64,000 bases of DNA, taken from contig JACTAT010000036.1 of the NCBI GenBank assembly GCA_014526335.1, positions 3,618,387 to 3,682,386 of the forward strand. The letters run 5' to 3'. This stretch comes from Chrysaora quinquecirrha (taxonomy: Eukaryota > Cnidaria > Scyphozoa > Semaeostomeae > Pelagiidae). Below the pieces are notes generated by a model. That model worked only from the letters and a program-made list of their open reading frames with translations, ran no database searches and had not been told where the DNA came from. Of the stretch, positions 1-63,780 are shown in pieces (position 1 is the first letter of the stretch; every line of letters begins with the position of its first letter). A program made the position numbers and the translations under genes.

Positions 1-2428
1 GTGGTCGCGGAAATATAGTCGGCGGTGCTTCGTTTACTGGAGCAGCATATGGGGATATATATGAACCAAATCTCTTTGGAAGTGCTGGGGGACAAGGAGT
101 GGACAGCAAGCGTGGGGGCAATGGTGGAGGTATTCTTTGGTTTAATGTAACGAACAGGCTTGAAATCGATGGGCTTGTATCTGCACATGGTGAAGCTGCA
201 ACTGAGAGAGGCTCCGGTGGCGGGAGTGGTGGCAGCATCTGGATCTACTGTCATACCCTTGCAGGTAGAGGGAGAATTGAAGCCAGAGGCGGCAACGGTT
301 CGTTTGATGGATCTTCACCTGGAGGTGGTGGAAGTGGTGGCCGCATAGCGGTTTACTTCAAAGTCAACGTAACTGGATATAGCTTCACATACCGTGCCCA
401 GGGTGGTGCAGCGTTTGGATGCATGAGAGGTAGGGAGGACCTCTGCAAGGCCGAGGCAGGCGGTCCGGGTACAGTGTTCCTTTATCACATGCTTGAAAAC
501 CACAGAACTCTGTTCTTGCACAACGGTTATCAAAAACCTTTGGTATCAGCCATACGGAATTACAATTCAACTCATGATGATGGATGTAAAGCTTGGGTCG
601 TATACCAGTCAGGGCGTCACGCATTCGCAGGCGGCAAAGATGACTTCCATTTTGAAGAGCTACAAATCTATGCTGGAGCCCATTTTGCCGTACTCACTAA
701 CCCACCGGAAAAGCCGGCAAGCTTGTTCTTCAGGCATATGATAGGTGATCGCACCGGGACTATTCACGTAGGCCCAAATCAAGTCATGGATCTAAAGAGA
801 GATGAGATAGACCTTCCTTTCAATGTTCATAATTACGAACGTGGCTTTCTTGGCCTAGCGCCTTATACTGAAGTACACGGCGTAACTATTTTCAATTCTG
901 GAACTCTCGCTCATATACAGAACCTTACTATACACCATGGCGGAGAGTTGTGGATGAATCACGGGGGACGCACAACAAATATGTCTAGCAGTACCTATGC
1001 ATTTGATGTTGTTCGTGTGCAAGATTTAGGCGCTATAAGGGGAAGAACAAAGCCTATTATTGACCCCGGAATCGTATTGAAGACACGTGCATTGATTATA
1101 GAAGGAGGTGGGACCGTTCAGTTTACCAGAGCAAAGTTAAATTCTGAGAATCTTACTGTTGATGACGGGGGGTTGCTTACATGTCAAGGTCTTGGCTACA
1201 ATCACACCCATGGGACTGGAACTGGATTTCTTGGGAAAATAAATGCTGGTATAGGCTATACGTCTTCGCTTGGATCAACAGGGGGTGGCTTTGGTGGTAG
1301 TGGAGGTCGTGGAAAAGGTGAAAAGAAAACCGGTCAACCTTACGGTGATTTGTACGAACCAAGTGTGTATGGTAGCTGCGGTGGAGGCTTGGCGCTATCT
1401 GGAAGCGGAGGAGGAATTTTGTGGATGAATGTGACTGATACTTTCTTTATTGATGGTCAGATATCCGCCAGTGGGAATACTGCCGCTGGTGGTTCTGGAG
1501 GCGGCGGCAGCGGTGGCAGTTTGTGGGTATATGCTAATAAGATAAAAGGAACGGGGCGATTGGTTGCCGTTGGTGGGAATGGAGGTGCCCTGGGAGGAGG
1601 CGGCAGTGGTGGAAGGATCGCTTTGTACTTCAAAGTCAATAATACGTTTACTGGGAAGTTTCAGAACTGGGGAGGAAAGGGTTCGGCAGAGCCCGGTGGC
1701 CCAGGGACATCTTTTATTTACCACCAAGGATATTTACACAGGACGCTTCATGTAGATAACAACAAACAGAAGCCTTATTCAGAGAGAATCCTGTCGTATG
1801 ATGATCTTTCAGAAGATGGTTGTCGAGCATGGATATTACCAATCTCTGGAAACCATTCTCTAGCATCTAATATCCACAATTATCACTTTGAAGAACTTCA
1901 AATATATGGCAATGCACACCTCGCAGTACTGCCTCATATCAGTAAGAACGCATCGATTTTCTTCAGGCATATGATTGGTGATAGATCCGGTGTTTTGCAT
2001 GTAGGAAAATACCAGACTATGAATTTAAAAAGACTCGCGATAGATACACCGTTCAGTTCTTACGTTTATCAAGCATGGATATCTTGGCCTAGCTACATTC
2101 ACATCGTTGCATGGTGTTTTCATTCACCTCGAAGGTGTCCTAGACCACGTGGTTGATTTAACGCTGATGATTGGAGGAGCGCTTCACTTATACCCAAGTG
2201 GTTCGACACACGCACAACTGGAATCACATTTGGATTTTAACGGCACTGTGAGAGTAAAGGCTGATTCGAAGATTATAACACACAGCTCTCAGGCCCATTC
2301 AAGGCCGTTTCAGCTACGGACCTCTGTACTGCAAATTGATGGTGGTGGATCGGTGAAGACTTATCATATCGATATAAATGCAGTCAACGTTACTGTGGAT
2401 GATGGAGGAACGCTGACGGCAAATGAAG
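1..2428 (+). CDS. Exon 1: modules M1 and M2 without introns
   Basis: The frame is open from base 3 (hinge residues GRGNIVGG, then YGDIYEPNLFGSAGG), so the exon or an upstream part of it lies outside the window. M1 core lies at about 100-500 (GGGSGGSIWIY, GGGGSGGRIAVYF, GGPGTVF) with GDRTGTIHVGPNQ near 750. M2 core lies at about 1380-1720 with GDRSGVLHVGKYQ near 1980. Both modules carry a Cys-containing DGCKAW/DGCRAW linker. A frame change (+1) falls at about 2092-2106, after which HGVFIHLEGVLDHVVDL restores the solenoid pattern. The donor GT is at 2429; the exon ends in phase 1. Confidence 0.85.
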
Positions 2429-5400
2429 GTACTGATTTTTCTGTTTATTTTCCAGTCTTAGTTATAGCCAAACGGTCAAAATTTGCCAAATATTTGAAAT
2501 TGGCTTATCAAGCAACTTTCCAACATTTGGCCACGCCTAAAACATTGCTTGACTAACAAGAATAGTAAAGTTTGTTATGCAATGTTTTCTTGAAAAGTTT
2601 AAAAACATTTTTAGCTTGAGACGACAAAATATTCTTGACCGTTACAGTTTTGCAACGCGGCTGGAAGAGCAGATATTTTTGCTTTGGAAACGAATTTAAT
2701 TCAGAACAAATTTGGGAACAAATTTCGGCCTTAAGTCTTGTCGTCAAGAGAGGATTTTTGCGATGGTGGTCCTAGGTTAAAGAAAAATTTTCCTCGATCT
2801 CCATTTAGCTTGGTCCTGAATTCCAATACGAATAATTATCGAACCGAATTTAAGACTAACTAGATCAGAAAGTGTTCGCCGCAAACACATGAAGTAAGCA
2901 GTTACTTTGTACAATATAGAAAACTTTACACTTGTACAAGTTAATCACCGACATAGGAACCGAAATAGAGACCTTCATAGAGAGGGGGCTTATTTCAACT
3001 TTTTGCTTGAATGAGTGGCTTGGTGCTTATTGAAGATACGGGTCTTAATAGATCTTAAACGGTATCGTTGCGATGTTAAATGCATTTTAAATTCCTTTCT
3101 AGGTGGACATCTATGGGGACAGGGCCCTGGCGCACCGAACAGTACAAGCAGGTTGAAGCATGGAGGTGCAGGGCATGGTGGAACAGGCGGACGCGGCTCC
3201 TGTGGAGGGCTGAAGAACTGCATAAGTAGGAAGGGTCTTCCTTATGGTAGCATGTTGCATCCGAACTCATTTGGCAGTGGAGGAGATGGAGCTGCAGCTG
3301 GCGGTAAAGGAGGCGGTATTATAAGCATTGTTACATCTGATACCCTTCAGGTAAGAAACTGAATTCAATGTGATTTAGTCACTTAAATAGCCTTTCTGTT
3401 CACAAACAGTCTCCTATCTGAATTTGAATTTGTTGTATGATTGCGAAATAGCAGTATACATAGGGTCTGCTCCAATCTTTTAAACTTTAATACTTGATAT
3501 CTCTGAGAAAACCTCAAGATTTTCCTTTAAACCTGGCCCTCAAGCATTTTTTCATCTTTAGGTCGATGGACTAATCATCGCGAACGGTGGTAACGCAACT
3601 AAGAACTTTGGTGGTGGTGGATCAGGGGGCAGCATATTCATAAATACAGAAGTCTTAACCGGTGGTCATACTGGATCGATCCAGGTAAAAGGCGGCACGG
3701 TACCCCCGTCGTTGAATGGAGGAGGTGGTGCTGGTGGAAGAATAGCTGCTTACTACAACAACACAGTAAGAGATGCATTCTATAACGGAACGTTTGACTC
3801 AGAAGGAGGCTCAGTTGGTTCAGTGTCGGAAGCAGGTGCTGCTGGGACTGTTTACCTGAAACACGTGGCCAATAATCATTCGAAATTGATCATTGATAAC
3901 AAAGGAGGCTGGAGCATGGATACCGAGATCGAGGCTAAGGGATATAAATTGGAGTTTTATAATGGTAACAGCGGCAGAAGTACCTCGTATTCAAAAGGAG
4001 GCATGACAGTCTCGTCTTCGTGTTCGATTTGGTATGATCGATATGTCCACAACCCGCCTAATCACGGATTGAGTAATTTGTTTGATCAGAGCTACCGCAG
4101 TGGATACCAAGGCTACTATTCACATTATTATATTGGACACTGCGCTAATGGACAACTGGATATAAATCTCAACAGAGTTATGCTGATTAATAGTGTGAGA
4201 ATATTCCCTATGCAAAATACTCATTTTAAGGTTAGTAGTCCTTCAGATTTTGTTTATGAAATTAAGCCGAAGCCTCTTTATTCATTGTGAAAGTGGTGAA
4301 ATGGTGTATTTGGCGCCAGTCGCTAGGATCTCAGAAGCAGGTTAACTGATCGAGACCTCACCCTGCCTATGACGTTATCGTTGCAGGGCTCCTTACCATC
4401 ATGCCACAAGTTTTGTTACTTTTGCTTGTCAAGCAATGTTTTCAGACGTGGTCAAACGGTCAAACATTTGTTGTAAAGCAAATTTAAAATGTTATACCAA
4501 CAATGTGTGATCGTTAGGCCAGGGCCTAAAACGGCAACTTTTACGTTCCTTTTACAGAACTGGTCGCAACCAGGCCCAAAACGGCAACTTCAACGTTCCG
4601 TTCCATTTTCAGAACTGGTCCCAACCGGGCCTATAACGGCAATTTTTACGTTCCATTATCAGAACTGGTCGCAACCGGGCCCGAAACGGCAACTTTTACG
4701 TTCCATTATCAGAACTGGTCGCAACCGGGCCTAAAACGGCAACTTTTACGTTCCATTATCAGAACTGGTCGCAACCGGGTTCCATTATCAGAACTGGTAA
4801 AACGGCAACTTTACGTTCCATTATCAGAACTGGTCGCAACCGGGCCTAAAACGGTCGTTCCATTATCAGAACTGGTCGCAACCGGGCCTAAAACGGCAAC
4901 TTTTACGTTCCATTATCAGAACTGGTCGCAACCGGGCCCGAAACGGCAAATTTTACGTTCCATTATCAGAACTGGTCGCAACCGGGCCCGAAACGGCAAC
5001 TTTTACGTTCCATTATCAGAACTGGTTAAAACGGCAACTTTTACGTTCCATTATCAGAACTGGTCGCAACCGGGCCTAAAACGGCAACTTTTACGTTCCA
5101 TTTTCAGAACTGGTCGCAACCGGGCCCAAAACGGCAACTTCTACGTTCCATTATCAGAACTGGTCGCAACCGGGCCTAAAACGGCAACTTTTACGTTCCA
5201 TTATCAGAACTGGTCGCAACCGGGCCCAAAACGGCAAATTTTACGTTCCATTTTCAGAACTGGTCGCAACCGGGCCCAAAACGGCAACTTTTACGTTCCA
5301 TTTTCAGAACTGGTCGCAACCGGGCCTAAAACGGCAACTTTTACGTTCCATTTTCTGAACTGGTTCCCAATAACACACTCTAAGAATGTTCTATTTTGAC

Positions 5401-8400
5401 TATTTGATATTTGTTTTGCAGCTTTCTGTGTTTAATTCAACTTGGCATCACATAACATCAGATTACGTGCAAGTCCTTTATTCGATCAATGCCGGAGCGT
5501 TTGTTGATATTCCAGTTAACATGTATTCGTCGAGCTTTCGGATCAGTCTAAAAGCAGCTAATCCAGCTACCAATAAAATATATTTGAACGAAATCGAGAT
5601 TTTCATTGGCGATACTCGTTACACAAACAGGTTAGTCGAGCATATTGAAATTTTATCAATTTTAAAACTTTCTCCAGCTTTGAAACATTCCCAGTGAAAC
5701 CTTTTTTGGGATGTGAGTTCTGCCTTATGTTGTTGTTGTTTTTGTTACTTTATTTTGAGTAGGCTGTTAATTCTAGCTTTTTCAGCTAATTTAGGCCTAC
5801 TATGCATGCCACATCCAGGCATGGGACCCCTGGTTTAACGTCCTTTCCGAAGGACGGCAGAGTGAGTTGTTCAGTCATCCATCCAGATGCTGACCTCACA
5901 CAACCAAGCTTTACTTCAGCTGAGAAGCTTGGCCACCCACTCCATATTTTGTGACTTTGATAAGCGAGCGAAAGGGGGTGGGGGCAGGGAATTCATTTTT
6001 CAAGGCACATCCATGTTTCTAGAGGCCTACCGTTCTTTCTAACTGTGCATCTGAAAGCAAAGTAAGAAAAATTGCGAGAAACTAAAAAAAGTTTTTTCGT
6101 CTGACACTCCTCAGAGTATAAACGTCAGAAAGAAACCGAAACAATTGGCTGAGGCGGAGTTTATACCCAGATGCGGATCGAAATGGGCCAATCAGAAAAG
6201 TTAAGCTAGATTGGTATTGTGTTTTGAGCACCAATAGGCTTGCAGGATACAGCGGGAAGGTAAATAGAATGCGCATTCTAATCTGCGTCTTTGTATAAAT
6301 TCTGCCTTAGTCAATTTTTTCGGTCTGTTTCTGACCACTATGGTTTTTGACTTTTATACTCTGAGGAGTGTCAGACGAAAAAATCATTTAAGAATATCCA
6401 AAGATGTTTGCTATGTTTCTCGCAATTTTGAAATTTTATACCGCTCACAAAGTATTCAAAGTAAGCCAAAGAACACACAAAACATCTGCTGTAAATTCTT
6501 ACAAGAATCTGTCAATTTCTCAGGTACAAGAATAGAGAATACAAGGGAGCGACAACGTGGGTAGAACCAGAGAACAGTGGTGCCTATTATTTCTCCGAAA
6601 TTCACCTCAAAGGAGCAGCAAGGCTGGCATTTATGGAGCGACCAGGTCAGGGAATCATAAAAGTAGGACATTTCTATGGTGAAAGCAATAGTTATATGTA
6701 CAGTGGTGTGGGACAAGAACTGCGAGTATTCAGAAGCAATGCAGATTTATCGTTTAACATCAGAAGTTATGAAGATTCACTGCTGCAATTGCCTTATAAG
6801 ATGTATGTTCATGGTGTTAGTGTGCACATGGGAAACAACAGCAAAGTAAGAGAACCTTTGATATTATCTGAGTAAGACCTCGTTAACACGGAATGGATCC
6901 GTTCCCATAACGTCACGATAGGGTTTTCGTTTGCTCCTTTTTGAGAACGGGAACGTTGTTTTTTGGGATACGCTCATGCTCGAAAAGCGGATCTATTGCG
7001 GATCCATTTGGATCCGTTCCCGATACGTTCTGGTGTAAAAGCAATGAAATCATATCCGGAAGGTACGGTTTTTTTGGGTTTCGTATCTTTTTCTCTCGTG
7101 TAAACGGGTTCTAAATCGCAAAGACCTTTTACAACATACACGGTATTTAAAAATAATGCTAACGCGAACTGATATGTAAAAATCTAGGCCTAGCTTAATA
7201 CAAAGAGCAACACATTCTCTGTCTTATAGACCTTTTTACTCTTTATGAATAGCAAGAACCGGTGGTGTAGAGCTCGGGAAAGGGCTCGAGGGAGAGCTGT
7301 GGCTCTGCTAGTCGCTTTGTTCAACTGAGCCCCTAATTTTCTTTCTTCAGTTTTCCAGTGTTATTGTCTCTCTTTCTTCAGAACCATAAAGGTTTTTGTA
7401 TTATCCGTACAACCATCTTACACGTAATTGTAAAGTTCAACTCATTTCTGGTAAATTTTGATGAAATGCAGTCAATCTACGCGAATCTAGAGTTGGTATT
7501 TTGATAAATTTTCTATAGGAGCATGTCCCCAAAGCCCCCCACGATGGGCAGAACACCGATTCAATTTACACCGGCGATGCATATCAGTGCCAGTCCGTAG
7601 CGTTGGTGCGACATATGGAAATTCTAATTTGCTGTAGAGCCCCTTAGTTATTGAACTCCACCCCACTGACAAGGACACTTAACGAAAACGAGGACACTTT
7701 TTAAACATATGCTGAAATGCTTAACTGACAGCATATTTTATTCTTCTGCAGTTCGTTGGAATAGAAGATTTGTATGTATTCAACGGTGGTCAAGTCAAAT
7801 TGGAAGCAACAGCTACGATCGGCAATGCGACGAAACCTGGTCAAATTGACTTGAGTTCTCTGCACGTGCAAAGTGGAGGATATTTTCAGATCACAACCAC
7901 TGAAAACGAAAACGATGTTTTTATGTCACTGAGTAACTTTACGGTTAGTACAAAACTTCAGTCATACAAAACTTAAGTTTTAAATTTTGCAATCTCTTTA
8001 AAATGCAGAAATCGTCAGAAAAAGACGTCAGAAACAGGTAGAAACAATTTACTCAGGCGAAACATGTGTCCAGATGTGGATTTCAATGCATCAGTTAAAA
8101 ATATCAAGTTGGTTTCGTATTGCGTTTACTAATCAATCAGTTCACAGGATTGAGCGCGGATAACGAATTCAAGTTGTTGAAGAGGCCAAGTGAGAAAGGA
8201 ACTCTTTCTGTCCGCAAAGCACTGCCGTTTGGTTTCGACATACGTACAGTACCTGCCAGAATTCTTTGAACCCAGAACGCCAGATTGGTTTTTCTTCCCA
8301 ACGCATCATCTCCTATCTCCTTCTGCATACAATGTTGGCTTACTGAATGATAGAACTTTCCAGACTCAAATGAACATTCAAATCACCCAAAAGCATTCTT

Positions 8401-11400
8401 CAACATTATGTAAAAACATTGTTTTTGATGGAGGGGGTTGAGTCAGCAATTTTTCCTTTTAGAATTGTAGCGAATCATTTATGTTAAAAGGCCAAAAGAT
8501 ATCAGAGGTGTTCCAATGTCAATCTGGCAGGCATTAGATTCCAATAACCTTATGAAACGAAGTCCCATATTTCAAGAAGCATTTTGATTTTATGCGTTCA
8601 TTTTCGTTTCATTTTCAATCAATATTTTGGCTGCCCGGAAGCTAGATAGCCCAGTTAGCAGAGCACTGAGCACTGGCTTAGGGAGGCGAAAATGGCTTGT
8701 TTGAGACTGTTGTGGCACAATCCAACATGATATAAGGGAAAATACAAGAAACATAGTTAAGCAGCAGTAAGTAAATTTGAAGAATAGTGGAATCATCTAT
8801 GACCTAGAGTGTTAATTAGTTTGCTTGATTCTGTTAGGTCTATGGTGGTGGACATTTCGAGTGTACCAATCGTTTACATGTGAACGTTTCCCACTTATTT
8901 GCTGTTTATTCCGGAGGAAAACTCAGTCTCGACTCTGGTGGATATCGAACGAAAACATCACCCCTACTATAAAGATTCATTCCACCGAAGGCCCTGGAGC
9001 TGGTAAAGGAAATACTGGTGGTGGAGGTGGTGGTGGGCATGCTGGGTCTGGTGGGCGTAGCAATGGAGTTGTTTATGCTGGTCAACCGTATGGGTCACTT
9101 TTCAATCCTTTGGATTATGGCAGTGCTGGAGGATTTGGAAATCATTATGGTAAATATTGTATACTATTATCATTTGTCAATTTTCTTCAAAGGAAAACAT
9201 CATTAAACAATAGGATACATTGAAAACGGGGTGGCTCTAACGCATGGTCCAGCAGAGCATTTCCTTACCAAGTGTCTTTTAGCTTTCTTTAACTGCAACA
9301 GACTCAACTACTTATATACCCCGTTGAGGGATAACTTAAGGTATGGCAAAAATAGAAGACTTGTCTCGCGCGACAATATATTCGACGTGTCTCCCAGGGT
9401 AGCTAAACAGGCGAGTGAAAAGCGAGCAACATGTCCCCCGAGTCATTTGGCGTCTCTTGCTACAAACTTTGTCACGCGCAACGAAGTTTCCGTTCCGAGA
9501 TGGCTAAACTTGAGACACCGAGGAGACATCAATTTCGCACGCGATATGTCTCCTGGTTTAGCCTGGCCTTTATAGTTTGCCTTGGTACCTCAGAACATAG
9601 TCAAAAGAAGTGACTCACTTCTCACTTCTATTGACAATGCTCAGAAGTACATGATAAATGGTTATGCATTACTTGAATAATTTGCCAATTTATGGGTTTA
9701 GTGAATCTGTTAGAGCCTTATTGAGATCTTTAGATGGAAAATATCCCAGTAACTAATTTCCCTTGACGTCCTAGCTGCCTGTTGTTGAGCGAAATCGAAA
9801 TTTATTTTTTCCGAGGAAAATATGCACATCGATGATACTTTTGACAAAATTTTTAAAAACGGCAGAAGTATAATAAACCTCTTGTAATTTTACCGCGTCC
9901 CCTACGAAGGACCTACACAACAAGGCTGATATTGATGTTTTCTAGCGAAGCACCAGTGTAACCTTAGAAAGGCCTAGGTAGTTAAACTTCTTTTAGACGA
10001 AGGTGTTCCATTTTGGCTTGACCTGGCACCCATATATTTGGAGACCTCAAAATTATACATGCTTTAGCTCTCAAACGTTGCATTCAAGTCTTCTTACTAT
10101 GCTTTTTCTCCTTGATCGTAGGTCAATTATATTTCGGCAACTACCACTCTAACACAACCACTGTTGTTGTTACAAACGCAGAGAAACTTCATTACCCATG
10201 GTGGTTTAGGTGGTCATGGTGGTGGCAGCCTTAATCTCAAAACGAGGCATGCTGTTATTGATGGACAGGTGTCAGTGAATGGTCAAGAAGGAGCCCTGCG
10301 GAGCACTGCTGGCGGTGGAAGTGGTGGGAGCATTTTGTTCCAATGTCAAGACCTGTCTGGATTTGGATCGTTTCTGGCTAATGGCGGAAAAGGTTCGCCG
10401 AATGGCGGAGGTGGTGGCGGAGGAAGAATCGCTGTCTACTACAACGAGCTGCATAAATTTGACGGGACTTTCATTGCCCATGGCGGAGACTCGAATATTG
10501 AAGTTGGCGGCGCCGGGACAGTTTATTTGGAGCAGAGGAATGGGTCGTTGGTTGTTAATAATACGCTTATTATTGACAACCGCAAGTTGAAATACCCCCT
10601 TGCAGTGCAGAAAAGCCAAGGGAATCTCCATAATTTGTTGAATGGAATCTATGATGATATCTCGAATGTTGGTGGTGTAACATGGCTCATTGAATATCAG
10701 AATCATTCGTTTACCAAAGTGGATATCAAAGGCAATGCACATGTAGCAGTGCTCTGGAAGCTGCATAAAGGAGATATCGAACTCAGGGCCCATACACTGA
10801 CAGGTAACATTGATATCATGTTATAAGCTTAATTCTTATACAAGTTGCATTTATTAATATTAATACCCATATTGATATTAAGTACTGATATCCGTTCATG
10901 TTCACAAATGAAAATGTTCATTTTCTTGAAAAAGACCATTCCTTAGTTAAATAAAAACCAAAATACTAGTGTCATCTGTGATTATGTCTGATTTTTCATA
11001 CCGCCCAAAATATTTCTTTTTGTAACAAAAGGGCGGGAAAAGACATAAACATGACAATTGAGTGTACTCATGTGGTGGCGTGATGTTTTCGAAAAAGTTC
11101 AAGAAACATTTTTGCCTGCGTGAAGTAAAAATGTTTTACGTATAATTTTTTCGGACGTGGCCAAACGGTCAAACATTTTGCTTGACAAGCGAAGTCCCAA
11201 TGTTTATCAAACAATGTTTGACCGTTTGGCCACGTCCAAAAACATTGCTGTCCAACAACTATGTTATTGCTAATGCACAAGCACGAACGCCTTGTTGCTA
11301 AGAAATGTCCGGGTGGTGAAATGTGGCAAGTTCTTGCAGTTTGTCAAAAAAAAGAAATATTTGACGAGTAATGTTTAAAAGGTGGCCAAATGATCAAAAA

Positions 11401-47400: not shown

Positions 47401-50400
47401 TTCGTTCGCTACGGTTGTATCATGATGCATTGATACTTGTATCATTGTAGCATAAACGTCTGTCATGTTCATTTTGTTGTTTTGTTTTAGGACCTCAAAT
47501 ACGCATGCTACTTTACTGGAGAACATTTTGATGTTGAGGCGACGGAGTTTCAATTAGAAATAGCCGCAACTTTAGATTGTTCAGGAAGAGGCAGCATAAC
47601 GCACGGCCTAGGCAGCGGCACTAACTCATCTTCCTCATCCGCGGCTGGTGCTGGCCATGGCTCAATCGGCGGTGAAGGTTCTTCTGGCGTTACTGGTGGT
47701 GTAGCTTACGGCTCTATCTATCAGCCGGTGTTACTCGGAGCAAGAGGTGGTTCAGGACCTGGTGGCAAGGGTACAAGAGGTGGTGGCCGTATGCGGATCA
47801 GAGTTGGACATAAGTTTATTTTGAATGGTATACTGGCTGCTGATGGAGTCAATGTCGTGTCCGGAACTGGTGAGTCCACTTTTAAAACGACAGTTGCGCG
47901 GACATGCCTTCCTCTGTCCCTTTTTGTTTTTTCATTTTCTCATATTCTGACTGCAGTAGCATTTGATTTTTGCTTAGCTAGACAATGAAGTAAAACTCTT
48001 GGAGGAAGTAATCTCAGACGGGTTTTCAGGCCAATCAATGTGATCTTGCATGACTAAATTTTGCACATAGCGCAACATAAGATGAACTTAGGACTCCCTA
48101 TTTTTGTACTTACTAGTCCGACCAGTATAAATTTAGTTGGAGCGATTACTTTTAAGGCTTTGTTGAACGCCCCTCTCCCTCGAACCGGCACATAAGACCC
48201 TGCCGTGATAGGAAAGAATACAATCCACTACACAAACTTATTTGCTTGCAAGATCCTTTGTAAACACAGAAGATATTCTACGGATTTGATAATGCAAACG
48301 TTGTTTATCATTACCCAGGTGAGGGCGCTGGTAGTGGTGGAAGCATCTGGATAACAACAAATGAATTCGGAGGACACGGTGAAGTCAGAGTTAATGGCGG
48401 TAAAGGCTTCTTGAGGAACAATGTTATGTCTGGGAGTGGCTCTGGCGGACGCATCGCAGTTCACATATCAGATGTAAACCATTACAGAGGAGCTTTACGT
48501 GCTGTTGGTGGCCTTAGCAGTGATAAATCATCTGGAGGTCCTGGGACTGTGTTTGTAGAGAGAAAAGTCGGCTATGATTATCATCGGAGACTTATAGTTG
48601 ATGGGAATAACGCTTCTCCTGCAAAACCGTTGGTGATCAATGAAAGAAATCCATCTACAGTCTTGAGAAATGCTAGTGAACTGAATAATGCTACGTTTGG
48701 ATTCGACGATGTGGTTTTAACAAATAAGGTATGTCTACGATGCACTCGTTCTAGCGGACACACATTTTAACGAATTTTGTTAATTTTTTTGTGCATGCCT
48801 TTGAGTCATCTGTAGTTCTCCGTAATAATAGGTTGTTGTCTTCAGAGCTTCAGAACTGAATCCTAAATTACAAGGCCTAACCCCACATTCTAAGGTCCTA
48901 TTCAAACGATCAAACATTGTTTGTCAAACATTTGAAATTTGCTTGTCAAACCTAACGTTTCACCGTTTGGACATATCACAAAACATCGCTGGTCCAACAT
49001 TTTTTTCTTGATACAAGCATAGAATGTTTTTGAAGTTCCTGAAGGGATTCTGCTTGTAAAGCAATGTCTCGCGATGTTGGCCAAACGGTATAACATTGCT
49101 TGTAAACCAAATTTTTTAATGTTTGACCAACCATGTTTGATCGTTTGGCAAGTGCCTAACCCTAACTTTGATGCCCTATCCGTTAATTCAAATACTTAAT
49201 CCTGACAAAACGTTGCAATCTTCTAGTTCTTTAGATGTCAATTTTATAGGAAAATAATGAAATAAATACTGATGTGTTAACTAAATTGCTTTAGAAAATA
49301 CAGAATTGATTTCTAGTGAAATAATTTAGAGTTTTTTCCTTTTAGGCCGAGCTTCGAATTTCTTCTTCAGACCTTCCCAATCCATCAATTTCAATTTTCA
49401 ATCTCATTGGCGATGGAAGCTCATTCGTTTATATTTCAGCCAATCAGACGTTCTTCATAGAATACCGCGTCGACATGACACGTAGATCCAGGTCCAAAGT
49501 CAACTACGTCATTGAAAGATACGGCAAACTGCTACTTCCTAGCGACTTTGTTATAATGGGTGAAAACAACCCAGCAGTGGTTTTAAAGGGATAATAGCTG
49601 GAGTATTGAACCTGACAATAGCTTCCGGCAGAAAAGTAATGATTGAACAATATGGCGAGACTTTACCCCCGGCTTCAGGACTTCAAAGCAATGCGTACAG
49701 TATTCAGGGAATTAATATTGGGGTGTTGACATTGGAAGCAAATTCAAATCTTGTGTTTAGTGACGTGCTTGATGGAATAATAGAATCCAGTGATGTTATT
49801 GCAAGAAATGGTGCAATCATCGAGTCTAAGGTTCGCTGTTAGCTCTATTCTGTTAATATTGTTTTAAGCAGATTCTTCCACAATTGGCATACCACAATAG
49901 ATGGGTTTCAAATTTGGACTGAATAATCAGAGAGCTAATGACAATTCCACTGAGCTATAAAACTCATTGAAATCGCCGAGTAACTCTCCAAGTCATACAG
50001 CCCAAGGCTCTCCTCCAGTTTGACTTTTTTGTGTTTCGGCTATGTTGAGCCTTCTTTAGCACCATACATATTGGTATATATTTGTTATGAATGGCGAACT
50101 CCAGGATAGAACCCCACGTGGCATACCACAATATATGGCATTCGAATTAGGACTGCATGAACAGAGAGCCAACGACGTTTCCACTGAGCTAAAGGCCTCA
50201 ATGAAATCGCTGTGTAACTCTATAAGTCATACAGCCCAAGAATCTCCTCACATTTGATTTTTTTGTGTTTCGACAATGTTGAGCCTTCTTTAATACCATA
50301 CACAGTTGTATATATTTGTCATTGATGTTTTAGAGATCTTCTTCTTTCCAGTTTTACAGGTAACAGCTTGATCAAATATATTTTTTCTTATCATCGTCTT

Positions 50401-53400
50401 TTTAGAACCTCACTATAAGCTCATCAACAATTCACTTGGAGACCGGATCAAAACTGACAGTCGCTGGTAAAGGCTTTCCACAACAGACTGGTCCCGGAAA
50501 AGCTTTAATTCAACAGGAGCTGGTCATGGTGGCTACGGAGGAGGAATCAATGCTGGATTGCCGTACGGTTCGTATTATTCTCCCAGAGATGCTGGATCAG
50601 GAGGGGGCAGCGCTGGAGCTGGAAGTACTGGTGGAAAGGGTGGTGGAACAATAATGGTAAGCCGATTATAATAGTTAGATTGTAATAGTTGCTGCTTATA
50701 ATAGCTCAATTGGATTGTTGTTGACTCTGATAATGCAGGCAATCTCGCAGTCAATATTCGAGTTCTAATCCTATCAATTGTGATGAAATAAGATGTGATT
50801 TTATGTTTTAAAAATCGGTTGCTATTTCTTTTTATAGCTGAATATCTCTTATACTGCACACATCGATGGTAATATTACTGCTGATGCTGCTGATGCATCA
50901 AATGGTAATGCTGGAGGAGGCAGTGGTGGCAGCGTTCTTCTTGAAGTTGAAAACCTCTCAGGACATGGCATGATATCTGCAGTTGGAGGGAAAGGATCAG
51001 GAACAGGGGGAGGAGGATCAGGTGGGCGGATCGCTGCTCATGTGGCATGGAGAAGAGAATACCAAGGTAACTGAAGCCGTTTTTAATATCTCCAATCATT
51101 ATACACCCTGTTATTATGAGGATTATCAGTTTTGTTCAGTAAAGAGTCATGTGGGACGGGTGTCTTGTAAGAAATCGTGATAGTTGTGAGGGATACACTA
51201 AAAAAGATGTCCAGATTTCATAAAGCGAATAAGCGATTTTAAATCTACAGCGCAGTTGGGATTATAGAAAAAGGAGAAGTTCAGTATAAGCATGAGCTGA
51301 AATATGTGGACAAGCGTTGAGATCTCTTGTTATTGTTCCTTAATTTTTGTTTCATTTTTTGCTTAAGGCTTGTATGCCGCTTTTGGAGGCAAAGGGAGCC
51401 CAGCTGGAGCCGCTGGAACGGTTTACTACACAGACAACAACGTAGGCTTAGACAGAAGACCGAGAGCCGTGAAAGCCGCGTCAAACAAGACAACCTGGGG
51501 CTACAATTTCAAAAAGCTTGTAATCGACAATGCGAATATGAACAAAGATGCCTTGACTGCAATCATCGAACCAAACATGAATTACGAATTTGACGAAATA
51601 GAAGCGAAGAACCACGCGAATTTGATTTACAACGGAACTGGTGCAAAACTAATCGTCCATAAATTCAGCGGTGACCGCACGGGATTGTTTCATTTACGCG
51701 CGGGACAGACAATTTACGTGGAGATTGTAGAATCCAAACGTGGTTTTACTATAGCGCCTGTGAGCTATAAGATCGACGCAGATGCCACTATTGAATTCCC
51801 ATCGAGCGTGACAGTCCTTGGAACACGGTGTATCTTTGATGGGCTTGTGGCAGGCATTGACACGTTGAGAATCGCCAAAGGCGCTGGTGTTATTGTGGGA
51901 AGCACAGCTAGAACAGCGAAAAGAGAAAACGGTACGTATATCAAGATGACACAACCAGGAAACATGAGTTTTTCTGAAGTGGTGATTTATAATAGTGCAG
52001 TGATGGATTTCACGAGAGTTAACAGAACTTTGTTATTAACAGCGAATGAATTGACCATCAAGTACAATGGACTTCTTAAGCTGAATAATGCAATGATTAA
52101 TTCAGCCGACATAGAAATAGAGAGTCGTGGAATTCTTGAGATCACTAAAGCTGGGTTTAAAGCTGAACAGGGACCCGGAAAAGGGGCATCATCGCTTGGT
52201 ATCGGATACGGTGCTGGTCATGGAGGAGAGGGAGGAGCTTCTATCAACTCTTCTGGTGGTGGCAGCGCGTATGGTTCTATATTCAAGCCCACTGGACGCT
52301 GGAAGTGGAGGCGGAAGTGGCTCTGGGACTGGTGGTCCAGGAGGCGGGTTTCTGATTCTTGGCGTTGGAAGGGATATCTTTCTGGATGGATTGGTTTCTG
52401 TGCAAGGAGGAAACGCTGCTGGCGTTAACGCCGGCGGTGGAAGTGGCGGAAGCGTTCTTATTGAATGTCTGAATATATCAGGACACGGATTGATTGATGT
52501 TATCGGTGGGAATGGCACAGGATCTGGCGGCGGTGGAGCTGGCGGAAGAATCGCTGTACATGTAAGATTCAAGCATAAATATGGTGGGAAATACAGAACG
52601 GTTGGTGGCAATGGAAACACCTATGCGGCGGCTGGCACTGTTTACATTGAAGAAACGAACAGAGGACCACAATATGCTGATATAAAGTATGACGTCAATT
52701 TGAATAAAACGATATTCGTTGCTTTACACCGATATCTTTTCATTGATAACGAAGACCGAATTTCGCCTTGGTCCACCGTGCTCATAGAACAATCTCTTGC
52801 GTTCTGGGAATTCGATGAATTGCATTTGATCAGGCATGCTAATTTGATCGCGCACCATCCCGTGACGTCACCGAATGTTACAATTACCGTGCATCGATTC
52901 ATTGGTGATGGGACTGGACGAGTGCACGTGAAAGCCAACCAGCATTTGTACGTCGAAGTTGTAGAATCCGTGACAAACATAACAACGGCACCTTGCAGTT
53001 TCTTAGTAGACAAAGGCGCAGAGATCATCTTCCCTTCAGAAGTCCATATATACGGAACTAGGAGCATCATTAACGGAAGAATCACTGGAGTCGAGGATTT
53101 GTTTATTGCCAGTGGCGGAAGAATTGAGTTTTCATCTTCATCGCAGACGGCTAAAGTTGAAAACCGAATTTACATATACATATCAGAGCATGGAAATTTC
53201 ACATTTGCAACGTTAACTGTCAAACGCAATTCTCAGGTGACTTTCAAGAAAGTTAATGATACTCTTAGACTGTATACAAGTGAGCTGAGGGTGAAATATG
53301 AAGCGAAATTGATAATGAACCATGGTTTGTTCTATGCAACGTTTGGATGGATTGAGAGTCGAGGTGTTGTGTTGTTAGATGGCACCGGGCATGAAGGAGG

Positions 53401-56400
53401 TGTAGGAAAGGGTTATGGGGAGACTGTTAATAGTGTTGGTATGGGTGCTGGATATGGTGGCGAGGGTGGCGGATCTATGCGTGGTAAAGCTTACGGGTCA
53501 GTTTATTCGCCAATTGATATGGGAAGTGGTGGCGGTCATGGACAAGGCAAGGGCGGTGCCGGTGGTGGGTATTTGTATCTTGTTATCAGCAAAAGGCTGC
53601 AGGTGAACGGGTTGTTGACCGCTAGAGGCTCATAACGGAACCTGGAGTCAACGCAGGCGGAGGCAGTGGTGGAAGTATCTTCATCAAGACGACGAACTTT
53701 ACGGGGCATGGTGAGATCAATGTCGAAGGTGGTGTTGGCAGTGGCAGTGGTGGTTGCGGTGCCGGCGGAAGGATTGCAATCCACTGTAGATGGAGATACA
53801 AATACGGTGGAAAGTTCAAAAATAAAGGAGGGCAAAACGTGTTTAATGGACAAAATCTTGGCGCTGCCGCTGGAACGGCATACAAGGAAGAGAATTACCG
53901 CCCGCTTGAATACAGAATTAAGAAATACATGAAAGCTACGAATACTTCAATTCTAAAGGTTGATCATACATACTTGCATGTTGACAACGAAGGCTTTAAT
54001 GTGCCCGGTGCAACGGTGTTGATGGAAGAATACAGAGACACGTATGAATTTGATGAGCTTGAACTGACTGGGTATTCACGGTTGGTTGTCTACCATCCTC
54101 AAAACAACAGTGTTAACGTTACAGTTCATAAATTCATCGGTGACAAAACAGGCCAATTTCATATATTTGACAGACAGAAGATATTCGTTGAAGTTGTTGA
54201 ATCCGTGAATAATGTCACAGAAGCTCCGTGTAGCTACCTTATAGAAGCCGGCGCGGAGATATTATTTCCCAGTGAGGTTCATTTATACGGGACTCGGACT
54301 ATATTAAAAGGAATGATGACGGGGGTACAAGATTTATATATTTCGTATGGATCAGAAGTCGATATCTATTCATCAACACAAACTGCACTTATGGAAAATA
54401 GAGGGTACGTATTCATCTCTCCCCCTGGAAATATTTCTATAGCGAAGATAGTTGTGAAACAAGGAGGCAATCTTGAATTCAGAAAGATAATCAAAGATCT
54501 CACGCTGACAGTCGATACTCTATTTGTTCATTATCAAGGAAGGCTATACATAAATCATGGAACTATTTTGAGTACCTACGGACATTTGTACAGCCAGGGA
54601 CTACTTAGCGCTGATTTCACTGGACATAGCTCCTTCTCTGGTCCTGGTCGTGGGGATAGTCTGTCTTTATCCGGGCAGAGTATTGGATCTGGTGCCGGAC
54701 ACGGTGGGCAAGGTGCATATGCGAACGTTTCGAAGTCAGGCTACGCTTACGATTCAGTGTACAGGCCTGTAATGCTTGGGAGTGGCGGAGGAAACGGTGG
54801 AGGCGTCGGCGGCTTTGGAGGAGGGCATCTAACCTGGCGTGTGAGTCAGAAACTCGAACTTGACGGATTGTTGACGGCAAAAGGCGCAGATGGTAAAGGT
54901 GGCAATGCCGGTGGTGGAAGTGGTGGTAGTATCCTTATTTTCACAACGAATATGACCGGACATGGCGTTCTGAATATCGCTGGCGGGAAAGGTTACGGCA
55001 AAGGAGGAGTGGAGCTGGTGGAAGAGCTGGCGTTCACTGCAGATGGCGTTATAGATTTGGAGGCACATTTAGAACTCATGGAGGACAAGGAGGACTTGGT
55101 GCAGCTGCGGGGACTGTATATAAGGAAGAAAATCTACGTGAATTGGACTATAGAATTAAGAAGTACATGAAAGGGACGAATTCGACTTATTTGGCTGTTG
55201 ATCATACAATGCTCTTTATAAGCAACGAAGGTTATAACGTTGATGAGCCTACTGTATTAATGGAGAAAGACAGACAGATATATGAGTTTGATGAAATGGA
55301 ACTAACTGGATACTCAAGATTGATACTATATCATCCGAACAATGTCACCCAGATCAATGTCACTGTGCATAAGTTCATTGGTGATAGGACAGGCCAGTTA
55401 CATGTCCGTAGCAATCAGGTATTGTTTGTGGAATATGTTAAGTCGATCATGAACAGAACCGAGGCACCGTGTAGTTATAAAGTAGACTTTGGTGGGGAGA
55501 TTTTCCTTCCATTTGAATTCCATGTCCATGGTGTCCGTACAGTGTTGGACGGCCGAATGACAGGCGTACATCATTTGTTCATTGAGCACAGCTCCAGTAT
55601 AGAGATATCAGAAACGGCAAGTACAGCACTGGTAGAGAACCGTACGTATACTGAAATATCTGGTCAAGGCAATGCCTCTATTGCTAACATCGTTATTAAA
55701 ATGGGCGGTGAAATGAATCTTACTCGCCGTCGTGATGTCTTCGTTGGAATAAAGGCAGAGCTCTTTGAGATTAAATATCACGGTAAAGTGAATATCAACC
55801 ATGGCGTTATCTATTCTACGTTTGGTGACATCGAAACAGGAGGTTTGCTTGATCTGAAAGGCGCTGCTATGAGTATGGGTAGGTCACCAGGTGGAATTCT
55901 ACAGAATGGCTGCGGAGCAGGAGGTGGCTATGGAGGAGATGGTGGCGGATCTAATAACGGCACGTATGGCGGGAAAGCGTATGGATCGACGTTTTATCCT
56001 GTTGAACTTGGAAGTCAAGGTGGAAATAGTGGCAGTAGAGGTTCGTGACTGGATTTTTCTTTATCCAAATATAAATTTCCTCTTTAAAATGTTAACCCAA
56101 GCAGATGAAGCTGTTATACTCTGTAACTGATGCAGTTTCTTGATGCAGATGCAAATGTCAAAAAATTTCCCCACGGTGTGGATCGAAATTGGTTCGGGTA
56201 CCAAAAGATTGGCCCGGCTTTGGTAAATTATCGCAGTGTAAACGATTGAAATGTACCTATCTTTATCTATGGCGAGGCCCTATTAACGCTACATCTTTAA
56301 TTCGTGCTATTATTATTGGTGCCCGCGCCAATTTCTCCCGTGCTGGGACCTCCTCTTCAATCGACCGTTTCAATCGAAAATTTTGGTAAAATCGGGTATA

Positions 56401-59400
56401 AAAACGCTGATAAATTATGTCCATCTTAATTCGACCTTTTCGAGAATTGAATCGAGGAAGAACAATAAATTTAATTTACCTCATTTGATTTTAGGTGGTG
56501 GTAGCCTGTACTGGATTGTAAAGAAACACCTTGATCTGGATGGACTTATCACTGCTCAAGGTGCTGATATGACGATAAATGGGAAAGGAGCTGGCAGTGG
56601 GGGCAGCATAATGGTGCTAACGACAAATGTAACTGGTAAGTTGTTGCAATATGCGTTATTTTTACGTTGCCTGCGTCGCGAAAAGAAAATCTGCTTATTT
56701 TTGCTCTCTGTATGCATACTATGTCGTGATGAATTAGACTCGTTAATGTCATAAATTTCCTTTACAATAACCTTGCAACGCGTTCTTTCTTAGGCCATGG
56801 CGAAATAAACGTCAACGGTGGCTCAGCCAGCGGCTGCGGAGGTGGTGGTGCTGGAGGGCGCATTGCTGTCCATGCAAGGCACAGGATCGATTATGGAGGG
56901 AAAATGAGAGCTGTTGGAGGCAGTAGTGGCTCCTACATTGGAGGCCCTGGAACAGTGTACATGTATCAAAGCAGAAGAGGACCGCAGTATCGGGAAATCA
57001 AATACAACCCCAACCTGAATATCAGTGAATTCAAACCGGAGCACTCCAAGATTCAAGTGGATAATGAATACCGGGTATCTCAGTCTTATGCTGTGATTAT
57101 GGACCAGAGTAGGACTTTGTTTGAGTTTGACGAGCTTTATATTGGTGGGAAAGCCCATGCTTCATTTTATCAACCATTTGACGCGTTAAACCTCACTATA
57201 TACGCGAAAGAAATAACGGGTGACAAGACCGGAGTGATCAGAGTCCACAATCGACAAAATCTATTCGTCTTTATCGTACAGTCAACGCACACATACATGG
57301 ACGCACCGTGCGGATTTTATATCAGCGATTACGCGGAAATCGTCTTTCCAACTGAGGTTATTATACGAGCGGAGCAGGTGACGCTACGTGGCCGCATGCG
57401 AGGCGTTGAAGATCTTACTATCGAAAGAAGCGGTAATTTTATTCTTCAAGGATCTGCACATACTGCGAGTCTTGGCGATGAAGCGCAGTGGTTCAATCCG
57501 CATCCGTTTTATCCGTTCACCGCTGGGCTGCTTGTTATCCCAAGGCTGTCTGTGAATAATAATGGAAAGCTCTCAGTGGATATGAATCCTACCATACCGA
57601 AGCTGAATATTGGTGAACTGAGAGTGAAAAAAGGTAAATTTTGAGTTAAGCAGACATTATGTATATTCCACTTTCCAAAGTTACAAAACGTCATTGAGAT
57701 GACTGTTAGCTAATGTCAGTTCCAGCTACTATTGCTGTTTTTTGTTACGTTTTTGATAATATGCCCAGTTACCTTCTTTGCAACGCTTTCCTACTCAGTC
57801 TTGTTCTTACGCACTTTCTTGCATGTTTTAACGCACTCCAAACTCCTCAATACGAAAAATTAACCTCTGTGATTGTATTAGTTCAAGTTAGAGCTAGGGC
57901 AAAGACAGTCAGAAAACCTGCTTTTAGTGGAGGGAGTTTTCGACTAAGTCATTTTGAATTTTGATGTGTTCATGGCATGAGCATGCTACTTATGAATGTG
58001 AATGGTGTGACACCCCAGAAATGTCTAAATTCCCGATAATTGGAAACACAGTTATCTTTTCAGGGCGATTCTCGGGCAAAACTCGTAGAGAAAAATCGCC
58101 CTGGTTACCTTGAACATCAGGAAAACAGAGACTCATACACAAGCAATGAATTAATGCGAAGCCGGATTAATTTCAAATGTGTTCTTTATAGGAGGTACAT
58201 TGAAGATCTTGACTAAGCATACATCGTTCAACAGTGACACATTGGCTATTGAGTCTGGAGCAATCCTGGATGCCTCATCTGCAGGCTACAGCGCCAAACA
58301 AGGACCTGGAAAGGGAGTCACACAAAACGTTGGTGGAAGCTTTGCATCTCATGGCGGATACTCAAGCGAGAGCTCTGTTTATGGTCATTACAATGCATTA
58401 TTCCAAGCAGGAAGCGGAGGAGGAATTGGCTCGGGAGGAGCTTTCGTTGAGCTGAATATTGGAGATGAGACTATTGTTGATGGGAAATTGCAAGCTGATG
58501 GGCAGTCTGTTGGTGTCAATTCAGGCGCAGGTAGCGGTGGTTGTATTGTCATACGAACATATGATATGAGAGGAAAAGGAATGATAACTGCGTCTGGAGG
58601 TTGGTATTACTTTAAATAATGTTTCGTTACCACCAGATGAAAACTGAATGAAAAGCTACTTGCCTGAAAGCCTGAAAGGCAATGTATATTTTAAGTATTT
58701 TTAGACGTTCTACGTAGAACTTTCCACTCATTCACTGTCTGAGAAGCTATTAAAATTTTGCAGGTTCAAGTCCACAAACAGTCCACACAAACGGTGGTGG
58801 AGGGTCTGGTGGTAGCGTGGCCGTCTTTCTGACGTCAAGTTATCGATTCGCTGGAACTTTGGCTGCATTAGGAGGAACTGGGATACGTCACGGTGGACCA
58901 GGAACAGTATACGTCGAAACCACAATTGCCAATCGTACTACCAACCGACTAGTTGTTGATAACCTTGGTCGTGATGAATCGTATTACCTGACTCTGGCTG
59001 TTGCTAATTCAACTATTGATGTTTTGGATTTGAGAAGAAAAGCTGTTGTAACTCTGCCTTTGGTAATTACAAACTATTTTCATTTAATATTGGAGACTTA
59101 GGCCCTGACCAAACTATCAAACGTTGTTGGTAAAACATTTCAGATTTGCTCATTAAGCGATGTTTGAGCGTTTGGCCACGTCACAATGCAAGCATAAATA
59201 GACAGAATTCCTTGCGCGAAGTTTTTGAAAGAATTTAAAACCGTCCTTTGTTTTTTTGGAAGCAAAAAAAAAGTTTCAGGACCCTTTTTTCGCAACATGG
59301 CCCAATGGCAAAACATTTTGCTTGGCAAGCAAATTTCAAATGTTTGACGAACATTGTTTGATGGTTTGGCCAGGGCCTTACCTGGTTACCCGTTGATGTC

Positions 59401-62400
59401 GTGTGAAAAATCTATACATTGCTTTCTGTTTAAACACAATATGGGTTCGTTTCCCAAAAATAATAAGGAACTGAAAGTGCATTTTTAGTTTTGGCTCACA
59501 AATTTTTCCTTGATTGTAGATTGGGCTTCATATTAATAGAGCTTAACTCAAGCTCCTTACTTTTATCGTTAAACGTACACTGTAGTCTGTATAGTAATCG
59601 TTAGGACACGAATCCAAGATCGGGAATCCAAATGGATCAGCCGTCCTAGCGTACCCAAAGATACGACCCCTTTCCCAAAAAGGTACCAAGCGCGCACGTG
59701 GCAGAAGCCTATCGTGGCCTTTTCCGCAACCTATCCGAGAGATCCGAGTGGAAATATCCGTGTTAACGGTGTCTTAAACTTAAAGAAACCTGTTAAGGAA
59801 CATTTACCTGAATTCTGCAACTCCAAACACTCTTGCAGTACTTCCACCATGTTTCACCTACAGTATTTTGATAAATATCCATAATTTCGTAAATTATTTT
59901 ATTCTTCTTTGTAGGACTCAAACTTTGTCTTCTATTGCGGATCAGTCACCGGAGATCGCACTGGCTTGTTGAAAATACGGAGGAGGAATAAAGTCTTCAT
60001 TTCACAGAATATACCACGCAGTCACATGGACGGAAATATCGAAATATTCTACGGAGGAGCATTGACACTACCACTGGTTTTCACCATAGCAGGAACAAGG
60101 AACCCTGCTCTGAATATCTACGGGTCCTTACTGGGAATAAAAACCTTGAGAATATTCAAAAGCAGTACAGTGTATCTCCAGTCGACCGGCCAGACTTCAT
60201 GTAAAACGTGCTTTTTTGCTGCAGCCAACACAACCGAATTCCCCGGTCAGTATTACTTTGGATCTTTGATTCTGATGAAAGGAGCCATTTTGACAATTTA
60301 CAGCCATTCAAATGACGTAACAGCGAAATCCGTGCGTTTGCATGTTGATTCTTTGACATGGAAAGTACTTCATATATCTCAGCTGACGTGCTGCAAATTA
60401 TCGCACTGCAAATGAAGCTTGAGTTGGATTCGAAAATCACTCTGTCTGCTCGTGGTTGTGCTGCTGGAAGTGGCCCAGGAAGAGCTTCTTGTGGGACATG
60501 TGCTGGGGCAGGACACGGTGGTAAAGGTGGCGTTGGATACAAAGCTTGTGGTAGTTGCTATTCAGGTAAGACCTCTCATAATTCAAGCTCTATTGTTATA
60601 TTGTCTATATTTTGAACCTCTGTTCTATGGCCCATACGAATATCGAGACCTAGGCTTGCTTTTCATGAAAGTGTCATTATTAATCTGAATGCTACTTTTC
60701 TTTACAATTTTTAATGTCCATTAGTTGTTTTTCTACTGCGTATTCTAAACAATTGTGGCTTTCACGTGTATTTTCTAGAGGGTCATTTCAGTCGTCGAAA
60801 AAGCGTATGAGATTTGTATGAAAACAAAAGGATTTATACAAGATTCCTACGAAAACAATAGAGATTCCAGCTAAGGGTGTACGAGATTCAAAGGGGTGAA
60901 TTGGCCCTTGTATTTGCTTACATTTCTTAACGTTATTTGAGCTCTGATATCAATATCAATGTATCAGTATTGAAACGGCTGCTTAAGAATGATAAGTTTG
61001 GGCTAGAAAATGGGAAACTGAAGAATAACGAGGCTCAACGGAAAGGTAAAGGTATTCCTATACAAAAGTGTGCATAATCGGTTCTTTAAACTTCAACGAC
61101 AACAAAGATATTGTTAGAGCAACATAATATACGTTAAGAGGAGTTGATACTAAACTTATTGATTGATAAAATGCCCAGTTAAGAATATTTTTAAATGAAA
61201 AAGAAATATTGTATATCCACAGGAGGGCCAGCTGTTTCTGATCCATGCAGCCCAACTATCAGTGGAAGCAGCTCGACCGGAATAGGAGGTGGTGCGTTGC
61301 TACTCAGTGCATTTCACGTCTTCGAACTGGAAGGTACAGTTGTTACCGATGGAGCGGCTGGAAGCTATGGTGGCGGTGGTGGCAGTGGTGGTAGCATATG
61401 GACTGATGCAGCTGCATACGAAGGTCATGGATTCCTACTTGCGAGAGGAGGAGCCGGCAGCTGCTACACCGGTCACTACACCTGCCAAAATCAATATGCT
61501 GGCGGAGGTGGTGGAGGACTTATCAGGGCGTTTTCACCTCTGGTCGTTTCTCCAGGTAAGTTTGCATGAACATTTGTCAGTGGAGTTTGTCCAAAGTCGT
61601 GCTAAAGCTTTTCTTGACAGACCTAGCTTATCTTTTGAGTATGGGTTCAGGATCCATCAACATCATAATCAGAAGTAATGGGTATCAAGACACTAAATTT
61701 TTCAAGCTCTCTTTCTAAAAACGATTTAAAGGCGAGGATATGAAACGTATATCTAATGGAATACCCACAGCGTCTTGTAACAGAAATAACTGTATCGCAA
61801 ACATCGAACATTAGCAAGCGAATAAAAAATGCATAAGGCCCTGGTTCAAACAATGTTTGCCAAACATTTGAAATCTGCTTGTCAGACAAAATGCTTGACC
61901 GTTTGTCCACACCATAAACATTGATTCAAGCATTAAACAACCAAAAATGTTTTCGAAAAGTTTAAAGGACATTGTTCACACAGACGGTGCCAAACGGTTA
62001 AACATTGCTTTCGTTCAAGCAAATCTCAAATGTTTGTCCAACAATGTCTGATTGTTTGCAAATGGCCCAACAGAGCGTGGAATAAAATCAAATCGATTTT
62101 GTTTGAAGTTTAGATGTTTTTGCTACTCTTCAAAATCAAGCCTGTGCTGTGATGTAGGGTTTTTTCTAATTCAATTTTTTTTTAATTTTGTATCAAGTGC
62201 AAGTTGCTAATAGATGAACTAACGAGACCTCGACCTTTGCTGTAACGCTGCCGTGGCTGTGACACTACAGAGTGTGCTGGATTAGACCATGACGCCCTGG
62301 CACCTTCAATTCTTGTATAGCCAAAAATCCTTTTTTTAATAATATTCTTTTCCGTTATAGATATTGTAAGTCAAAGATCAGTAACTGGAGGTACATTGTC

Positions 62401-63732: not shown

Positions 63733-63780
63733 GTATGTATGTTAATCTTCAGTTGAATTCTGCTGTGGAGTGATTCAATC

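Follow-up and report, generated by a model that had tools for sequence, protein, structure and literature searches.

A giant gene of ordered glycine-rich modules in Chrysaora quinquecirrha, probably encoding part of a membrane-anchored surface rod

Introduction

What kind of protein is encoded by a stretch of scyphozoan DNA in which a glycine-rich repeat, carried in open frames of the plus strand, occupies much of the sequence? The stretch analysed here, called the window, is 64,000 nucleotides of Chrysaora quinquecirrha (GenBank assembly GCA_014526335.1, contig JACTAT010000036.1, positions 3,618,387–3,682,386 of the forward strand), and positions below are counted from its first letter. An initial annotation had read it as one gene for a protein of more than 11,000 residues. 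We find that the gene is real, extends beyond the window and is conserved. We further put the probability at about 0.6 that the window is the middle of a gene for a giant membrane-anchored rod, roughly a quarter of a micrometre long, whose role in a cell coat or in adhesion is proposed by analogy.

The internal part of a giant gene

A series of plus-strand exons spans 1–63,732 and, within the whole 64-kb window, reaches neither a start codon nor a terminal stop, as first annotated. Our final model of this internal part was guided by homology (31 homologues as evidence) and tolerates frame slips; it has 45 exons, 32,245 coding nucleotides and 10,745 amino acids (eight of them X at slips) on the plus strand, with 0 in-frame stops. 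The earlier figures of 47 exons, about 33 kb and more than 11,000 residues were thus about right. The companion claim that the exons join in matching phase did not survive: the reading frame changes 15 times within exons, and a first coding model, trained on long frames with slips forbidden, reached only 9,329 amino acids in 47 exons, with gaps of 44–100 nucleotides spanning the frame changes at mostly weak splice scores. The 44 introns (median 660 nucleotides, range 64–2,237) are GT-AG in 43 cases and GC-AG in one, and fall in phase 1 (22), phase 0 (19) or phase 2 (3). Because splice dinucleotides and the stop-free frame are largely imposed by the gene model, neither is independent evidence. 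Exons range from 17 nucleotides (9214–9230, dubious) to 4,988, and the midpoints of four of the 45 (exons 7, 16, 19 and 21) lack support from the evidence homologues. Exon 1 (1–2428, plus strand) comprises the end of a module that starts upstream, the first numbered module (W01) and the beginning of W02, with a slip near 2071; six proteins (P0001–P0006; P numbers denote the proteins compared) cover all of it at 73–80% identity.

The final model contains 25 motifs of the GGPGTVY type, starting at 457 to 58892 and spaced by 314–560 residues, mostly 380–420. In the raw six-frame translation of the window the motif occurs 26 times on the plus strand and 0 times on the minus strand; 30 order-2 Markov sequences of window length gave a mean of 0.67 and a maximum of three motifs in six frames. 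Pairwise identity among the 25 modules averages 28% (range 21–52%, 300 pairs). Their consensus opens with GgaGTvY, L.idN, fdel.l, GD.tG..hv...Q, a glycine-poor solenoid stretch, gpG and GagHGG.GG, and continues with YGS...P...GS.GG, GGG, DG, GGGSGGSI and GGGG.GGRIAv. Introns lie mostly in the second half of the module, and the modules are therefore not single-exon cassettes.

All modules are on the plus strand. W01–W09 (457–34539; motif starts 457, 1693, 3835, 10506, 13558, 20600, 23785, 28739 and 32238) lie mostly on short exons. The region of W10–W18 (34540–48533; starts 34540, 36361, 37967, 39111, 40298, 42161, 43334, 44493 and 46224) holds exons of 4,988 nucleotides (36144–41131) and 3,760 nucleotides (41880–45639). 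W19–W25 follow at 48534–61222 (starts 48534, 51406, 52623, 53861, 55100, 56940 and 58892). A shortened, motif-free 26th module (61223–61555) precedes the EGF array and aligns to residues 4372–4479 of Amphiura P0121. The count first given, about 25 motifs plus one shortened module, agrees with the model. The EGF array starts within 62361–63732, also on the plus strand; Pfam matches on the frame 63245–63742 are EGF_Teneurin (E=3.7e-20), EGF_TEN (1e-18) and EGF_2 (1.5e-17), and Amphiura residues 4567–4723 align to 63260–63727. Our Pfam scans covered nine window frames, seven relatives (P0157, P0159, P0161, P0162, P0163, P0165 and P0216) and the tail of Actinostola P0123, which is the only scanned piece that reaches a C-terminus. 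No Pfam model covered the module in the nine window frames.

A conserved family under borrowed names

Relatives of the modelled protein occur in bivalves, an annelid, ambulacrarians (including a brittle star and acorn worms), a tunicate, a sea anemone and the choanoflagellate Salpingoeca rosetta, and carry the database labels ‘uncharacterized’, ‘TENX-like’ or ‘Tenascin-X’. The glycine-rich modules of about 400 residues are collinear with those of the reference proteins, and a Teneurin-type/EGF_2 array follows the last of them. The same modules in the same order are found in P0121 (Amphiura filiformis), P0125 (Saccoglossus LOC100369350), P0124 (Mya, ‘TENX-like’), P0122 (Potamilus, ‘Tenascin-X’), P0161 (Patiria, ‘Tenascin-X’) and P0123 and P0140 (Actinostola). 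Mean chain identity to the window is 33–45% for P0121–P0128, and single modules reach 60%. Models that extend far enough run into the EGF array, and we take these giant animal proteins to be the same family, each represented by a partial or split model and none by a full-length one. The initial statement that no named protein has this full layout thus holds among characterised proteins as far as we searched, but a conserved family is already in the databases. Our literature search found no description of the family or of its function. For P0123 there is a precomputed Pfam entry, PF26129.

The choanoflagellate protein PTSG_13036 carries W20–W25 in order (6/6) at 28–51% identity per module, and an F5/8C domain is present on the paired model PTSG_13037, as in animal relatives. 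The choanoflagellate proteins differ in that their module matches are spaced by 430–684 residues and no EGF or membrane part was seen. PTSG_13037 also includes a part resembling ribosomal oxygenases (PF08007), which may reflect fusion of gene models; this protein (P0211) and PTSG_11389 (P0196) are 82% identical over 1,144 residues.

In a tree of W20–W22 (28 rows) the window is outermost in a group with Actinostola (Hexacorallia), P0072, P0073, P0074 and P0076, with support 100/100. This placement marks the sequence as probably cnidarian, and it may come from a lineage outside Hexacorallia. An exon-1 tree (57 rows, quick method) groups it with P0001–P0006, adjoining 14 further rows. Speaking against the explanation proposed here, the latter tree places Ptychodera P0208 and Solemya P0215 beside the cnidarian-like group and apart from other bilaterians, and it therefore mixes in other module copies or paralogues.

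Several observations on individual relatives accompany these trees. A second well-supported W20–W22 lineage, with Pecten (P0157, P0154, P0156, P0075, P0144, P0146, P0147 and P0150), lies beside the Mya/Potamilus lineage and is perhaps a mollusc paralogue. Mactra P0127 and P0158, which are recorded with contigs of unequal length, are 59% identical where they overlap. P0085, an animal-type protein, is filed under a metagenome-assembled genome of Candidatus Thiodiazotropha, and is probably host DNA in a bacterial bin.

The missing ends

The ends of the protein were read from relatives, signal-peptide-like starts being judged by eye. In Saccoglossus P0165, 2,909 residues precede the window's first residue and begin with such a start; the N-termini of Ptychodera P0208 and Potamilus P0163 are alignable to it, and Pfam scanning places an F5/8C domain near the N-terminus of relatives (residues 256–386 and 265–380). 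Downstream of the modules, Pecten and Ptychodera carry Teneurin-type EGFs, and Actinostola has LamG_3, then a hydrophobic helix at 5692, then a basic tail. Pinctada has a hydrophobic helix at 6850, and the regions adjoining the two helices are 24% identical (E=9.5e-9).

The protein had been thought to end in EGF repeats. The array of relatives is instead succeeded by LamG-like domains, a single membrane helix and a tail in the cytoplasm, which makes a rod anchored in the membrane more likely than a free fibre. Its extracellular placement, also part of the first reading, is supported by 147 N-X-S/T sequons in the modelled protein and by the signal-peptide-like N-termini of relatives. We infer that the gene of this species has the same ends, which would give an estimated full length of about 15,300–19,300 residues (2,909 + 10,745 + 1,676 from Actinostola or 5,672 from Pinctada), a sum that mixes species.

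Three observations sit less well with this arrangement. No alignment joins the first 500 residues of S. rosetta P0211 to the N-terminus of Saccoglossus; just two of 15 scanned proteins showed a strong hydrophobic helix at the C-terminus, most of the others ending earlier; and Pecten P0157 extends beyond its EGFs with no membrane helix. In this lineage the same giant protein might lack the anchor and be released as a fibre of matrix or mucus, a reading that we consider unlikely. It gains from the fact that the window stops short of the C-terminus, from the tenascin-X-type names that databases give to family members, and from a scallop byssal protein reported under the name tenascin-X (PMC5700196), itself a candidate family member. 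What argues against secretion is that the membrane helix and its neighbouring region occur in both the sea anemone and the pearl oyster, which suggests that the anchor is ancestral.

One gene or several

Whether the window holds one gene was judged from relatives' gene models, chained onto it by tblastn, and from the best blastp match of each module. From the 5′ part, Mactra residues 2949–7472 chain to 30–35322, and an Owenia chain (1770–5705) starts at 3. Saccoglossus 1–5934 chains to 2107–47793 and Potamilus 78–6775 to 8981–55205. Towards the 3′ part, Mya 3–5760 covers 36265–63580, Amphiura 8–4723 covers 42113–63727 and Pinctada 3–1646 covers 54526–63727, the last protein continuing to 7318. 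Because the chains overlap across the window, every internal stretch is joined in the model of at least one species. Across 22 named proteins, the best match lies at the collinear place for 118 of 143 chain-covered modules; the 25 that do not include modules of Mya P0124 (5/11) and Mactra P0127 (4/10). The window is most likely one gene, to judge by these sequence comparisons, and the single-gene claim of the initial annotation is borne out at that strength.

This conclusion has to be set against several points. Chain and best match share their underlying alignments and so are only partly independent, and the whole protein is not covered by any one model. Actinostola P0123 is without a stretch of about W08–W16, its chain passing from about W08 to W16/W17, and part of its EGF region resembles another frame. 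W01 has near-equal second matches (for example, 346 vs 341 bits in Mactra), and paired pieces sit on contigs of unequal size in Mactra, Actinostola, Solemya and Diadema. The Saccoglossus (P0165/P0125) and Potamilus (P0163/P0122) annotations, moreover, both break near W03/W04, as they would if two or more genes lay in tandem, the first coding for an N-terminal protein that stops near W03 and the next beginning at W04. We regard such an arrangement as quite unlikely, given that models of Mactra, Owenia, Mya (P0160), Patiria, Mytilus and Lytechinus cross W03–W04 in one protein, and that the window model requires neither a start nor a terminal stop.

Predicted fold and comparison with known proteins

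Two one-frame plus-strand stretches were predicted to fold as beta-solenoids: 689 residues at 3–2069 (model m8e1849505170; predicted local distance difference test [pLDDT] 93.9, predicted template-modelling score [pTM] 0.91) and 454 residues at 53644–55005, comprising W22 and its flanks (model m89817ea2cf6d; pLDDT 85.4, pTM 0.80). The fold was assigned from strand tables and structure matches rather than coordinates. For both models the nearest solved structures are beta-solenoids, mostly parts of bacterial adhesins, and the solenoid first deduced from the glycine/hydrophobic pattern thus came through the fold prediction suggested as its check. Proteins of a Bathycoccus virus and an Ostreococcus virus (BFVD A0A7S6NY19_2 and A0A6H1QWC9) match the module fold at a Foldseek probability of 1.00.

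Among the systems compared, PKHD1L1 would be the closest working analogue. It is a stereocilia surface-coat protein of 4,249 residues with two G8 domains, 13 IPT domains and an eight-residue tail (PMC6707252). Like the giant family, PKHD1L1 and fibrocystin are large and mostly extracellular, with one membrane helix and parallel beta-helix repeats; the portion of that paper at hand mentions no 400-residue glycine-rich module or EGF array (PMC6707252). A parallel beta-helix ectodomain, a PKHD1/PKHD1L1 feature, appears in our predicted fold models. A G8 part-domain match scored 18.3 bits in the window, below the 22.9 cut-off, and 31.6 bits in Patiria, above it; IPT/TIG domains had no Pfam match in the window frames, relatives and P0123 tail that were scanned.

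Tenascin-X and teneurins share the EGF type (EGF_Teneurin, EGF_TEN) with the giant family. Tenascins are defined by FN3 repeats and a C-terminal fibrinogen-like domain, and teneurins by NHL and YD/RHS regions following the EGFs. We rejected tenascin(-X) on finding no FN3 or fibrinogen-like Pfam match in the scanned window frames, relatives or P0123 tail, and teneurin because P0157, P0159 and the P0123 tail show no NHL or YD/RHS match beyond their EGFs; the other Pfam scans reported no YD or NHL domain either.

The glycine-rich module stretch also aligns to the N-terminal model (NF047640) of AgmC, a Myxococcus gliding protein (E 3.9e-9), as do 37 of the 50 rows of our alignment A1. As an AgmC equivalogue the window protein was rejected, at 35.9 bits against a curated cut-off of 275 and with 106 of 412 profile positions aligned. 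The module motifs occur in bacterial proteins and in an Ochromonas protein as well, and with the AgmC match this means that modules of this type also exist outside animals; what is special is the long ordered array. The secreted and autotransporter solenoids of bacteria (HMW1, EtpA, Ag43 and TibA) were not among the sequence matches at E ≤ 1, and we know of no membrane helix or EGF array in them.

These bacterial matches, together with nearest solved solenoids that are mostly bacterial adhesin parts, would also suit a defence or microbe-binding surface protein whose solenoid binds bacterial glycans. This seems improbable to us, as the module order is kept between animals and a choanoflagellate, which would be unlike a fast-evolving immune receptor.

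Frame slips

The 15 frame changes inside exons lie at 2071, 8956, 11860, 13867, 20905, 37661, 38193, 39410, 43800, 50493, 52290, 53633, 55010, 60350 and 62502. At 12 of them (all but 8956, 50493 and 60350) the commonest or top-scoring homologue alignment crosses with a net change of one or two nucleotides. Bridging is clear at 2071 (73/91 homologues), 11860 (26/34), 52290 (201/243), 53633 (137/246), 55010 (96/200) and 43800 (44/88), mixed at 20905 (8/30), 37661 (55/198), 39410 (29/102) and 38193 (5/21, best alignment −1), and thinly covered at 13867 (1/1) and 62502 (2/2). These 12 are, on the alignments, indels and not introns. A metagenome relative, P0171, chained to 36142–46853 at 57% identity, is a 3,163-residue protein with a single open frame across four slip sites, and the nine slips inspected lie in short runs, judged by eye. 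The simplest reading is that the slips are assembly indels, as in long-read assemblies.

That the window's own frame is interrupted 15 times does count against an intact gene; a decaying pseudogene copy, in which the slips that act as indels relative to homologues would be true mutations, is nonetheless highly improbable, given 10,745 codons readable with splice sites present and no in-frame stop (both favoured by the model), the intact P0171 frame, and short runs of a kind that long-read assembly would produce.

Other features in the introns

An intronic minisatellite at 4546–5424 (spacing mostly 50 base pairs, 13 overlapping copies listed) produces a spurious 289-residue open frame at 4530–5399. 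Dispersed repeats resembling miniature inverted-repeat transposable elements, about 60–145 base pairs long and in both orientations, lie in introns at, for example, 4432, 11138, 14317, 22620, 48903 and 59278. One intron contains a tRNA-Arg (anticodon acg; 17616–17690) on the minus strand, opposite to the gene, and another a pair of 216-nucleotide repeats, 234 nucleotides apart and 81% identical (49878–50327).

A possible role and its meaning

We propose that the gene encodes a giant protein, about 15,000–19,000 residues long and with type I membrane topology. After a signal peptide would come solenoid modules together with a discoidin (F5/8 type C) domain close to the N-terminus, and then a stack of beta-solenoid about 33 module lengths long. 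The EGF array would follow, then the LamG-like domains, and beyond them a single membrane helix and the cytoplasmic tail. The stacked modules would form a stiff rod, of a length we infer to be about 0.25 micrometre, held off the cell surface on the EGF stalk. The distal discoidin domain, glycine-rich loops and position-specific module faces may serve to bind glycans, the matrix or an adjacent surface, and by such binding the protein would act as a cell-coat or adhesion rod, a presumed role like the length. The analysis itself shows the gene, its number of modules, the kept module order, the predicted fold and the occurrence of these end domains in relatives.

A bolder version, speculative and in our view unlikely as a whole, takes module order to have been kept in part since before the choanoflagellate–animal split. 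The protein would then be an undescribed pre-animal surface rod of microvillar or ciliated (for example, collar) cells, in which about 33 modules keep their identity and order, each with its own binding site, giving a molecular ruler or address strip about a quarter of a micrometre long. The animal ancestor would have had it, and vertebrates and ecdysozoans would apparently have lost it.

Were the membrane-anchored coat or adhesion rod confirmed, it would be among the largest animal proteins, a rod older than animals, with no Pfam model for its module and no described function found, which annotation pipelines split into pieces, some of them named tenascin-X. A cnidarian and bilaterians share the module order, and a choanoflagellate shares it for six modules; this conservation suggests that individual modules have specific functions, and the family would bear on the origin of cell-surface rods and coats before multicellularity.
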